Shown: piece by piece, positions 4,620 to 23,007 of the stretch
How the letters are laid out: each line of letters starts with the position of its first letter
Numbering within the stretch: position 1 is the first letter of the stretch
Source: Candidatus Avelusimicrobium vaccinum
GTDB taxonomy: Bacteria; Elusimicrobiota; Elusimicrobia; Elusimicrobiales; Elusimicrobiaceae
Reading direction: 5' to 3'
Assembly: GCA_902794895.1 (NCBI GenBank)
Contig: CADBIY010000016.1
Location: 1 to 34,910 of the forward strand
DNA length: 34,910 nt
The notes under the pieces: generated by a model
What the model was told of the DNA's origin: nothing
Seen by the model: the letters and a program-made list of their open reading frames with translations, nothing else
The model's database searches: none
Program-made: the position numbers and the translations under genes

Positions 4620-4648
4620 CCCCGGGTATAAGCCCGGGGTTGTTTGTT
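4620..4648. terminator. Bidirectional terminator between converging genes
   Basis: The stem CCCCGGG (4620-4626) with CCCGGGG (4633-4639) and loop TATAAG is flanked by A-rich sequence on the left and TTGTTTGTTT on the right. It can therefore stop the plus-strand CBM48-like gene and the minus-strand pilin. Confidence 0.85.
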
Positions 4649-5160
4649 TAGGAAGGAATTGCAATCGTCCAGTTTGGATCATTTCCGGCTATGGTATTGC
4701 AAAAATCCTTTCCATTATCTGTGGTGTAATTGTATTGGCAAGTACGAGTGATTGTATTTGTATTTTCATCGTAGGCTATCATAATAGATGCAGATCCAAA
4801 GTAGTAACCGGAGTATCCACTTAAGAGCCAAGTGCCGTTACTATGTACATGAGGTAAGTCGGATGTCCAAAGGTCATTTGGAAATATTCCCTGTTGACCT
4901 GCCGGAATATCAATGGAGCTAAAATAGGGTGTAAAATCCATGTCTAAATCGCTCCAAGATGATAGTGGGGTATTTCCGTTTGCCAGTATATACACATTAA
5001 CCGCTTTTTCTAATGCACTATAAAACTGTTTAATTTGCATAGCTCGCGTTTTTAGTACCGCTTTTTGATATTGCGGTACGGCCACCGCCGATAAAATGCC
5101 GATAATCAGCACAACAACTAACAGTTCAATGAGTGTGAAACCGTTTTTGTTTTTCTTCAT
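4648..5160 (-). CDS. Type IV pilin-like protein (PulG/PilA family)
   Basis: A 170-residue prepilin. A short basic leader (KKNKNG) is followed by the peptidase site [19 protein letters not shown], with Glu at position +5 of the mature protein, then a hydrophobic helix and a variable C-terminal domain containing two Cys near the end (TCQYN, DFCNT). The leader would be removed and the first residue methylated by a PilD-type peptidase, giving a pilus or pseudopilus subunit. The ATG at 5160 follows AAAGGAG. The gene stands alone, not in a pil operon. The other pilins here (19404, 22501, 34850) share the N-terminus but differ afterwards. Unlike those three, its upstream T run is only 7 nt and no TTGACA-type -35 is seen. 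Confidence 0.92.
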   Translation of the reverse strand: MKKNKNGFTLIELLVVVLIIGILSAVAVPQYQKAVLKTRAMQIKQFYSALEKAVNVYILANGNTPLSSWSDLDMDFTPYFSSIDIPAGQQGIFPNDLWTSDLPHVHSNGTWLLSGYSGYYFGSASIMIAYDENTNTITRTCQYNYTTDNGKDFCNTIAGNDPNWTIAIPS

Positions 5161-5552
5161 TTTTGTTCTCCTTTAGGTCGGGCTCAAGGGTAACAAAAAA
5201 ACGGCCGTTATCTTTGAGCCTAGCGAAGTGACCCAAAAGACAACAGCCGTGGCTTGCCACTCTTGCGAGTGGCAAACGCTCGGCACAAAACAACCGGGTA
5301 ATTAAGCCGTTTGTTTTGTGCCTGATAACGAGCCGTTTTTGGACTTCGCTATGGCCCTTGGTACCAAGGGCTATCCGCGTTCTTCACGCGGTTCCAAAAA
5401 ACAGATTTCAAATTGTATTACTACTTTCTTATTCTACGTAATTTTTCTTTTGAATTGCAAGGGGGAAAACAAATTAAAACCGGGTGTGCTAAATGCACAC
5501 CCGGTTGAGGTTACAACTAATTCCCCGGGATTACCCGAGGAGTCAGGAAGAT
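5161..5552. other. Hairpin-rich 392-nt intergenic region
   Basis: No convincing gene is seen here. Between the pilin and lexA lie several perfect inverted repeats: a 9-bp stem with a TTGC loop (5254-5275), a 12-bp stem (5282-5293 with 5311-5322), an 18-nt uninterrupted palindrome (5354-5371) and a 6-bp stem (5375-5391). The lexA terminator follows. Segments 5196-5212 and 5221-5229 also have near-complementary partners at 5324-5340 and 5343-5351. The region may be a structured RNA or an intergenic repeat family. Confidence 0.55.
5478..5506 (-). terminator. Rho-independent terminator of lexA
   Basis: A perfect 12-bp stem (5478-5489 with 5495-5506) has a 5-nt loop and is followed on the minus strand by TTTTAATTT. 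A weaker second hairpin (about 5521-5538) lies between it and the lexA stop. Confidence 0.85.
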
Positions 5553-6161
5553 TTAACAATTAAAACTGCGTTTAATAATACTGCGTACAATCCCTTCCAC
5601 GTGAAAGGATGTTTTGTCCGCGATAATAGGAGTATAGTGCGGATTTTCCGACTGTAAAATCACATTTTCTCTGTCTTGTGTAAAGCGTTTTACCAGCACT
5701 TCGCCGTTATTGACGCATACCACTACATCTTTATTTTTCGGTTGGTGGTTTTGTTCGACAATCAGCCAATCTTTGGGAGAAATTAAACTTTCCATGGAGT
5801 CGCCTTTGGCTTCTACCATAAAACCCTTGCAGGCCGGAAAATAAATCATGCTCGGGTCTACCGGTACAATGCGGGTGGGTTGTCCGTCTAAGATCGTTCC
5901 CTCCGGGCCGCATTTGGCCATACCATACATCTTTAAATAGATCACGTTGCGTTCCGGGTCCTTTAAAATAATGTAATCGCGCGGATTGGCGGGGTTACGT
6001 TTTAAATAGCCTTTCTTTTCCAACTGTTTGATGTGGTGAAAAACCACGCTTTTCCCACTTACATTTAACCGCTCTGCTAATTCTTCCATGGTTAAAGGAT
6101 CGCTAATATTGGTCTTTAAAATTTCTAATAATTCGGTTTGTTTGGGGTGTAATGCTTTCAT
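5553..6161 (-). CDS. lexA: LexA-type SOS repressor (S24 self-cleaving)
   Basis: A 202-residue protein, the normal LexA length. The N-terminal winged helix (residues about 5-65, including LTMEELAERLNVSGKSVVFHHI) binds DNA. The C-terminal domain has the S24 dyad: Ser122 in KGDSME and Lys158 in VLVKRF. A Cys84-Gly85 pair sits exactly where E. coli LexA has its Ala84-Gly85 scissile bond; UmuD also uses Cys-Gly. It would repress DNA-damage genes until RecA-stimulated self-cleavage. The ATG at 6161 is preceded by AGGAGG. Upstream lies a tandem 12-nt repeat likely to be its own operator (6194-6217). It is monocistronic, with a terminator at 5478-5506. Another S24-family regulator is possible but less likely given the length and residue positions. 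Confidence 0.85.
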   Translation of the reverse strand: MKALHPKQTELLEILKTNISDPLTMEELAERLNVSGKSVVFHHIKQLEKKGYLKRNPANPRDYIILKDPERNVIYLKMYGMAKCGPEGTILDGQPTRIVPVDPSMIYFPACKGFMVEAKGDSMESLISPKDWLIVEQNHQPKNKDVVVCVNNGEVLVKRFTQDRENVILQSENPHYTPIIADKTSFHVEGIVRSIIKRSFNC

Positions 6162-6193
6162 CTTTGGTGCAACCTCCTAAACTTTTACTTATT

Positions 6194-6230
6194 ATTATGT
6201 TCTATATTATGTTCTATAAAATTATTTCAA
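6194..6230 (-). promoter_or_regulatory. lexA promoter with tandem 12-nt operator-like repeat
   Basis: ATTATGTTCTAT occurs twice in perfect tandem (6194-6205 and 6206-6217), giving GTTC-N8-GTTC. On the minus strand this overlaps a plausible promoter: TTGAAA (complement of 6225-6230) and TATAGA (complement of 6201-6206), 18 nt apart. The placement, 33-56 nt before the ATG, suits autorepression. Direct-repeat LexA boxes (GTTC-N7-GTTC) are known in alphaproteobacteria; assignment here is inference. Confidence 0.55.
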
Positions 6231-6309
6231 AAAAGTAAAGTTAATTTTAAAAATAATTAAAATATAAGTATTTTTTAATTTATAAATAAAAAATTTCGTT
6301 TCATAAAAT

Positions 6310-18973: not shown

Positions 18974-19347
18974 TTTGGCTAAACGCAAACGGCTGTTCGT
19001 ATGACCACGTAATTCGCAGAAAAGGGACAATGAAGAATTGTCCCTTTTCTTGCTATTAAGGGCCAACGATTTTCCAAATTCTGCCAATTTGCGTGTGATT
19101 GGTGCTTGCCGTACCTGGCAGTACGGCTCTGCGCGCCACTTACCCACGCACCTTGGAGCGAATTTGAAAAATCAGGACAATCTTCCATAGTGTTAGTTTG
19201 CTATGCACGACATTTTTACGTTATTCGCGGTGTATTTTGAAGGGGTTGGACAAACGTCGTTTGGCGCGATCTGCCCGTGCGGCGAGCACCTTGTCAAGCC
19301 CATTTTTTGGCCTATTTATCGTCGTAGAAATTAAAAGATGCTGTTTG
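18974..19347. other. Intergenic region with structured segment, no convincing gene
   Basis: After the osmC terminator (19018-19050), about 300 nt remain before the pilin promoter. There is a perfect 7-bp hairpin (19108-19114 with 19121-19127) enclosed by GGTGC (19101-19105) and GCACC (19148-19152). A 69-codon minus-strand reading frame covers part of it but has no ribosome-binding site and no recognisable protein. It may be a structured RNA or an intergenic repeat; I cannot tell. Confidence 0.4.
19018..19050 (+). terminator. Terminator of the J-protein/OsmC operon
   Basis: A perfect 14-bp stem (19018-19031 with 19037-19050), GAAGA loop and a TTTTCTT tail. Confidence 0.9.
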
Positions 19348-19370
19348 TTTTTTTTTTTTTGATATATAAT
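19348..19370 (+). promoter_or_regulatory. Pilin promoter with T13 tract before TATAAT
   Basis: A run of 13 T (19348-19360) is followed by GATA and a consensus TATAAT (19365-19370). A clear -35 hexamer is not visible. A small hairpin (AGGGA-CAGC-TCCCT) precedes the ribosome-binding site AAGGAG. Confidence 0.5.
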
Positions 19371-19403
19371 TTAAAGAGGGACAGCTCCCTAAGGAGAAAT
19401 GAT

Positions 19404-19931
19404 ATGAAGAACAAAACATCTAAAAAGGGGTTTACGTTAATAGAACTCTTAGTAGTGGTGTTAATTATCGGTATTTTAGCAAGCGTAGCATTACCGCAGT
19501 ATGAAAAAGCGGTGGAAAAGTCGCGCGCGGCGGAAGCGTGGGCGACACTCAACGCTATTATGAAAGCGGAAGGAATTAAAAATATGGAAGAAGGTACTGA
19601 TACAACGACCTATCCGGTCAGCGAGTTGGCCCTTTCATTTGTAGATAAAAACGGAAATTCCGTTACGGAAACGTCTTGGTACGGAAAAGATTTTTATTAT
19701 GGAGTGGGAGGGTATCAGAGCACAGCAGAACGTTCTGGTTCCAAATATACTTTATCTCTTTCAGCGGATGGGAAGCGGCGTTGCTGGGATGGAAATAGTG
19801 AGTCTCTAACTAGAGGAAACTGTAAAAAATTGGGGTTTTCCACGGCAGCGGGCAAAACCTGTTTGTCAGGAGGCGGATCGGATTCTCCTAATGATAGTGA
19901 TGCTTTGGAATCTGACTGTTGGACGGAATAA
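19404..19931 (+). CDS. Type IV pilin-like protein (PulG/PilA family)
   Basis: A 175-residue prepilin with leader MKNKTSKKG and mature start [20 protein letters not shown]; Glu5 is present. The segment [21 protein letters not shown] continues the N-terminal helix and is nearly identical to the pilin at 22501. The C-terminal half is different and carries four Cys (CWDG, NCKK, TCLSG, DCWTE) likely to form disulfides. The ATG at 19404 has AAGGAG 7 nt upstream; an earlier in-frame ATG at 19338 would put non-pilin residues before the leader. It is a single gene with its own promoter and a bidirectional terminator. Confidence 0.93.
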   Translation: MKNKTSKKGFTLIELLVVVLIIGILASVALPQYEKAVEKSRAAEAWATLNAIMKAEGIKNMEEGTDTTTYPVSELALSFVDKNGNSVTETSWYGKDFYYGVGGYQSTAERSGSKYTLSLSADGKRRCWDGNSESLTRGNCKKLGFSTAAGKTCLSGGGSDSPNDSDALESDCWTE

Positions 19932-22500: not shown

Positions 22501-23007
22501 ATGAAAACAAATCAAAATTTAAGCGGTTTTACCTTGATAGAATTGCTTGTAGTGGTGTTAATTATCGGTATTTTGGCCAGTGTTGCGCTGCCGCAATACC
22601 AAAAAGCGGTGGAAAAAAGCCGGGCGGCAGAGGCTTGGAGTACGCTAAAGGAGATCAATGATGCCGAACAATTTAAAAATATGGAAGAAGGAACTACGGG
22701 CATCGTTTATAACTTTAGCGAATTACCGATTAATTTTCTCAATAAATATGGCACATCCGCTACAGAACGTGAAATCTTGGGAACTAATTTTAATTTTTAT
22801 ATCTATGAAGGCGGGGTATTGGGTACTAGTGGTGAGTATGAGCCGGCGTGGGCAGAGGCAACGGGGCATGGAAGATGGTATCGCTTAGGATTTTCCCAAG
22901 GTAGAAAAGTATGTACTGAAAGCGTGAGTGATAATTTTTGCAAAAGTATTTTAGGGAGTAGTAGGGCTATAGATTGCGGCACTTCGGTCAGTTGTTATGT
23001 AGAATAA
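22501..23007 (+). CDS. Type IV pilin-like protein (PulG/PilA family)
   Basis: A 168-residue prepilin with leader MKTNQNLSG, mature [20 protein letters not shown] with Glu5, and the helix continuation [20 protein letters not shown]. The first 50 residues nearly match the pilin at 19404; the rest diverges, ending with Cys residues (KVCTES, FCKS, DCGTS, SCYVE). AGGAGG precedes the ATG at 22501. Its promoter contains a T11 tract. The 3' end overlaps the end of the minus-strand rbfA remnant by 20 nt. Confidence 0.93.

Follow-up and report, generated by a model that had tools for sequence, protein, structure and literature searches.

The promoter of lexA in Candidatus Avelusimicrobium vaccinum (Elusimicrobiota; Elusimicrobiaceae) contains a perfect tandem repeat of 12 bp which is very probably, judged from comparative sequence data, a LexA operator acting on lexA itself. 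The gene lies on contig CADBIY010000016.1 of assembly GCA_902794895.1, of which positions 1 to 34,910 were analysed; this whole stretch of 34,910 nucleotides is called the window here. The proposed operator is a direct repeat of GAAC half-sites with a period of 12 bp (GAAC-N8-GAAC on the lexA strand, GTTC-N8-GTTC on the other), and the distinct direct-repeat LexA operator suggested by the initial annotation is supported by comparative genomics. We give a probability of about 0.88 to the explanation taken as a whole, which comprises a LexA operator, repression, release in the SOS response, association with one branch of LexA proteins and autoregulation in this organism.

The initial annotation had noticed a 12-nt word occurring exactly twice at 6194-6217, and both the sequence and Tandem Repeats Finder (TRF) confirm it. 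ATTATGTTCTAT is present without mismatch at 6194-6205 and 6206-6217, and the tandem extends one base beyond at either side, so that TRF describes it as TATTATGTTCTA in 2.2 copies at 6193-6218, with period 12 and 100% identity. The window contains no second perfect 2x12 tandem. A first-order Markov model of the AT-rich DNA around the site was used to make 20,000 strings, each 200 nt long; a perfect 2x12 tandem arose in 0.075% of them, and a direct pair of GAAC or GTTC with N8, one half being permitted as GATC, in 0.105%. The single 12-mer ATTATGTTCTAT searched at up to two mismatches gave three matches, two of which are the tandem itself, with 4.4 expected. As a single copy the word is not unusual, and the evidential weight therefore comes from its conservation in lexA promoters.

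This LexA was found in 64 of the 120 genomes searched, own genome included, and the upstream DNA was read for 63 of these lexA loci (own and 62 relatives), a C-terminal fragment at a contig start (G022) being dropped. Each of the 63 promoters has one box, with both GAAC exact in 62 and one GAAT in L038. GAAC-N8-GAAC is present in 61 of 62 Elusimicrobiaceae promoters, while the N7 spacing of the alphaproteobacterial type occurs in one of the 62, the palindromic GAAC-N4-GTTC in none, and the other spacings from 0 to 20 and other orientations in at most two each. A different motif upstream of the lexA orthologues, which in the initial annotation was to count against the proposal, is thus not what these loci carry. 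Among 29 promoters whose flanks share less than 60% identity, neither TAGAAC core changes, and the flanks and part of the spacer vary. The identical spacer of the window (TAA twice) is not common to most relatives, so the identity of the spacers appears incidental and what is kept are the half-sites and the 12-bp period. A chance tandem duplication without function would be in keeping with the AT-rich intergenic surroundings and with this incidental spacer, but it is refuted by the fact that all 63 promoters keep the half-sites and the period although spacer and flanks vary, and we regard it as practically excluded.

At up to one mismatch the box matches at 69 places in the 120 relatives, 61 of which are at lexA and eight in or at the start of open reading frames (ORFs), and the reversed control gave 10. 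TAGAAC-N6-TAGAAC in 45 genomes of the genus matched at 39 lexA genes and 12 other places, all 12 inside ORFs or long stop-free frames (control 11).

The position of the box relative to the promoter bears on whether the repeat could be a core promoter element of lexA, an extended -10 or start-site sequence kept by transcription. The overlap with the -10 region claimed by the initial annotation is plausible by eye as TTTACT-N15-TATAGA; this pair was not among the results of a promoter consensus scan. Many relatives carry TTGACA or TTTACA at the -35-like position, with TATAGA about 15 nt after a TTGACA-like hexamer (by eye), and the box covers the -10 region in the window's genus, as a core element would. 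However, the box precedes the -35-like hexamer TTGACA in three relatives (L061, L331 and L332, by eye), it is not found ahead of other genes of the own genome, and at the umuDC genes of some genomes described below its orientation is opposite to that of the gene, and it comes after a -10-like hexamer (by eye). This variable position fits a repressor site and not a core promoter element, which we consider improbable. In the window 31 nt separate the end of the box from the start codon of lexA, which is on the minus strand.

By its domains the window protein is a member of the LexA family, with predicted LexA-type winged-helix and S24 peptidase domains over the cut-offs of PF01726 (39.7 bits) and PF00717 (75.1 bits); against TIGR00498 it scores 103.5 bits, under the cut-off of 110.95. 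Its best relatives of solved structure are LexA repressors. A predicted self-cleavage site and Ser/Lys dyad are present: Cys84-Gly85 and Ser122/Lys158 occupy the corresponding positions and are invariant in six aligned sequences. This assignment follows from the alignment with stretches of E. coli LexA and the roles of the residues there.

With respect to binding, repression, cleavage and dimer geometry we infer from the sequence the following circuit. A LexA dimer would bind the two same-direction GAAC half-sites, which at 12 bp are slightly more than one helical turn apart, and, placed over the -10 and start region, would block RNA polymerase and keep lexA low. After DNA damage RecA filaments would induce self-cleavage of LexA at Cys84-Gly85, and lexA would be derepressed. 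To occupy a direct repeat a symmetric dimer would presumably turn one DNA-binding domain about its hinge.

To our knowledge most described LexA proteins read mirror-image sites and few direct-repeat sites are known. The palindromic GAAC-N4-GTTC is the Gram-positive type of LexA box; it has the same GAAC half-site, but there the half-sites face each other with N4, while here they point in the same direction with N8. Direct-repeat LexA operators as such are known. Caulobacter and other alphaproteobacteria have the LexA box GTTC-N7-GTTC (PMC8565304, PMC12907096), which shares with ours the GTTC/GAAC half-site in direct repeat and differs by its period of 11 bp instead of 12; the comparison is one of operator motifs. 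In another phylum, the Balneolaeota, the LexA box is TTACACATATTTTWTACATA, a direct repeat derived from lexA promoters and demonstrated by electrophoretic mobility shift assay, whose targets are recA and translesion polymerases (PMC7739468). Both are direct-repeat LexA-type sites, that one assayed and ours predicted, and by our reading of the consensus the Balneolaeota half-sites are TACA-like with a period of 13, in contrast to GAAC and 12. The non-canonical LexA-like S24 repressors of Bacteroidetes, which have a diverged DNA-binding domain and run an SOS regulon, recognise palindromic motifs (GGA-N5-TCC and CTAA-N5-TTAG; PMC8565304), unlike the direct repeat proposed here. In the open-licence literature, covered mostly by listings and passages, neither a GAAC/GTTC direct repeat with N8 nor a LexA motif of Elusimicrobia was found. 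The 12-bp-period operator is therefore a variant that we did not find described, and would be the first LexA operator predicted for Elusimicrobiaceae and some Patescibacteria in the literature searched.

A search with PF01726 gave matches in 115 of 198 phylum genomes; GAAC-N8-GAAC occurs in none of 66 LexA-like promoters of the phylum outside Elusimicrobiaceae, GAAC-N4-GTTC is present in seven of these 66, and a loose TACA/TGTA palindrome pattern fits 11 of the 42 loci of the phylum that entered the tree described below. GAAC half-sites of LexA promoters in this phylum thus face each other in one family and follow head to tail in another. A protein-alignment scan of GTDB genomes gave 107 relatives, and from the best 80, which were kept, 19 loci (L337-L355) with 46-53% identity were examined. 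They are labelled as Patescibacteria (including Dojkabacteria, Peregrinibacteria, Magasanikbacteria, Gracilibacteria and Parcubacteria), Rickettsiales or Alphaproteobacteria, Proteobacteria, Aminicenantes and, in one case (L340, the same gene as L063), an Elusimicrobia metagenome-assembled genome (MAG). GAAC-N8-GAAC lies within 170 nt of lexA in 13 of these 19 loci, which had been found by protein only (12 of 18 without L340). GAAC-N10-GTTC is present in eight of the 19, in seven of them as a third half-site. Gene starts of the phylum, cross-phylum and recA loci were assigned by script. In a viral collection a single relative was found (67 residues, 33%).

A tree of 66 rows, calculated by a quick method, included 42 of the 70 phylum loci L188-L257, then L061, L062, L331, L332 and L337-L355, and the window; the genus of the window is one row, L333-L336 were left out and L063 stands as L340. 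All 21 box-bearing rows fall within one clade of 28 (SH-aLRT, the Shimodaira-Hasegawa-like approximate likelihood ratio test, 99). By eye, all 28 rows of the clade have a three-residue gap ahead of the 'PLT' stretch, and a wing with YxI or YxV, in many cases as NPxDYxIL; SRG or ARG is found at this place in most of the other rows. The box goes with a LexA branch, marked by the gap and the NPxDYxIL-like wing, of Elusimicrobiaceae, some Patescibacteria, Rickettsiales-like and other MAGs. Such a clade, beside LexAs of the same phylum with facing GAAC, is well suited to tests of how the geometry of the operator switches. The arrangements of half-sites in the clade are direct N8, GAAC-N8-GAAC-N10-GTTC with the third inverted, three in tandem (recA of G271) and outward GTTC-N11-GAAC.

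In some members of this clade the box precedes SOS genes. Across 25 genomes that carry a LexA of this clade, TAGAACAN5TAGAACA matches exactly at 22 places: 16 at lexA, three at umuDC, two overlapping at recA of G271, which make up three half-sites in tandem, and one ahead of phage-like genes (G128). The boxed umuD-umuC pairs belong to one class of Patescibacteria (G258, G262 and G263, two of them labelled Dojkabacteria). UmuC is over the cut-off of PF00817 in all three, and the sole UmuD scanned (L378) has 166 bits with NF007621 (cut-off 110). Among 85 genomes of the class of G262 there are 10 exact matches (reversed control 3), two at lexA and three at umuDC in the same three genomes and five inside ORFs of five others (L386-L390). 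A further 22 matches in the 25 genomes have one mismatch: three at lexA, one at recA of G066, one at a repair-linked radical-SAM gene of G258, one at phage-like genes (G125), one at another intergenic place and 15 coding; the match of L364 is intergenic and precedes an ORF. The recA box of G066, a genome of the same family as the window, is 74 nt ahead of the start, and RecA is over its family cut-off in both G066 and G271. The radical-SAM protein is TIGR03916-like (306.9 bits, under the cut-off of 343.5); a radical-SAM protein is among the members of the SOS regulons of PMC7739468. The copies ahead of DNA-repair genes called for by the initial annotation therefore exist at recA, umuDC and the radical-SAM gene in other genomes of the clade, and none was found in the own genome or in the genus as searched.

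These positions also bear on the possibility that some other regulator controls lexA through the repeat. Such a regulator would be compatible with the sequence data that underlie the LexA reading, but the distribution of the box follows that of the LexA clade across phyla, and in some members of the clade the box precedes recA, umuDC and a repair-linked radical-SAM gene. As a weak point in the same direction, five of the 66 genomes of the genus (G005, G008, G019, G042 and G055) gave no lexA hit at 1e-15, and these also have no box at up to one mismatch. We consider another regulator as improbable as a core promoter element.

Several observations weigh against control of lexA by LexA through this box as part of an SOS system. 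In the own genome a search for a second site with TAGAACANNNTATAGAACA at up to three mismatches gave 25 matches, as against 27 in the reversed control, and only that at lexA is exact. In the genus no box was found at 41 recA and Y-family polymerase loci. Within the clade recA is boxed in two of 21 loci read (L415, motif not read, being omitted from 22), the umuDC cases are only three and all of one class, 15 of the 22 one-mismatch matches are coding as given above, and the reversed control at up to one mismatch has 32 matches against 44 in all. Three of the 25 genomes (G272, G273 and G276, the genomes of L345, L351, L352, L355 and L348) have no match at up to one mismatch. Seven rows of the clade were not counted as box-bearing: L255; L342, where the box is 587 nt upstream of lexA and closer to a divergent small gene; L348, which has only GAAC-N10-GTTC; and L345, L351, L352 and L355, where GTTC-N11-GAAC replaces the direct repeat. 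These last four form a Rickettsiales-like subclade (SH-aLRT 100) with outward-facing half-sites. Finally, the binning and names of MAGs may be wrong.

As to the size of the regulon, only three of the 25 own-genome matches besides lexA fall outside ORFs of at least 90 amino acids, and none of them keeps both GAAC. RGAAC-N7-RGAAC gave 21 matches in the own genome (control 8), 19 in ORFs and the other two at lexA and at window 5379-5395. A wider regulon in the own genome was rejected; lexA alone has the box there. The best position weight matrix score in the 41 genus loci is -2.0, where lexA boxes score 27 to 40 and one lexA region 11.9, and exact GAAC/GTTC pairs with N8, which occur somewhere in seven of 42 genus loci, are never within 250 nt of the gene. 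Y-family polymerase is present in 11 of 41 genomes and was not found in the own genome. The DNA ahead of recA looks coding almost to recA (seven genus loci, by eye), and recA may thus lack a separate promoter. The evidence gives no support to an SOS regulon of several genes in this organism; with lexA as the sole boxed gene, the circuit in its genome is probably autoregulation only. We tentatively extend this to a cross-phylum LexA clade, probably spread horizontally, with polar GAAC half-sites of evolvable arrangement, with restriction-modification genes that may be tied to DNA damage and with a regulon shrunk to lexA in the window's genus; the odds are somewhat against this extension.

Table 1. 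Features of the lexA region in the window
Feature	Position	Strand	Basis
Proposed LexA operator, direct repeat, coding strand TATAGAACATAATATAGAACATAATA, GAAC-N8-GAAC, 12-nt period	6193..6218	-	sequence, TRF, 63/63 lexA promoters
Half-site 1, gene-distal, GAAC core; extended TATAGAACA	6211..6214	-	GAAC in 62/63 loci, GAAT in L038; no change among 29 non-redundant promoters
Half-site 2, gene-proximal, GAAC core; extended TATAGAAC	6199..6202	-	GAAC in 63/63 loci
Weak -35-like hexamer TTTACT, 15 nt ahead of box TATAGA	6234..6239	-	by eye
lexA ribosome-binding site AGGAGG	6173..6178	-	sequence
lexA, 202 amino acids; winged-helix domain with 3-residue gap relative to other LexAs, PRDYIIL wing	5553..6161	-	
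Terminator-like hairpin 3' of lexA, 12-bp stem, T-rich tail	5478..5506	-	

Beyond Elusimicrobiaceae this lexA often stands at the head of restriction-modification genes. The order lexA-vsr-C5 methylase is found in L340 and L343 (Pfam for both genes of each), lexA with an N6 methylase and a convergent BsuBI/PstI-type endonuclease in L338, L339, L348 and L349, and lexA with an Eco57I-like methylase in L354; Pfam supports the endonuclease of L339 and, in L338, L349 and L354, the methylase; the remaining genes were assigned by eye. Small GIY-YIG nuclease-like proteins adjoin lexA in L337, L341, L342, L349 and L353 (by eye), mostly divergent from it and with the box in between. The phage-like genes preceded by a box belong to two Elusimicrobiaceae genomes (L398 and L399, both at 1501-1519, by eye), with a DnaC/IstB-like ATPase in L399, and are perhaps prophages under LexA control.

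In the window several inverted repeats lie between lexA and a prepilin gene (5180-5415 and 5478-5506); an Rfam scan of the window gave two tRNAs only, both outside this gap. Three scattered genes have type IV prepilin-like N-termini (4648-5160, 19338-19931 and 22501-23007), and more prepilin-like genes are found near lexA in relatives.
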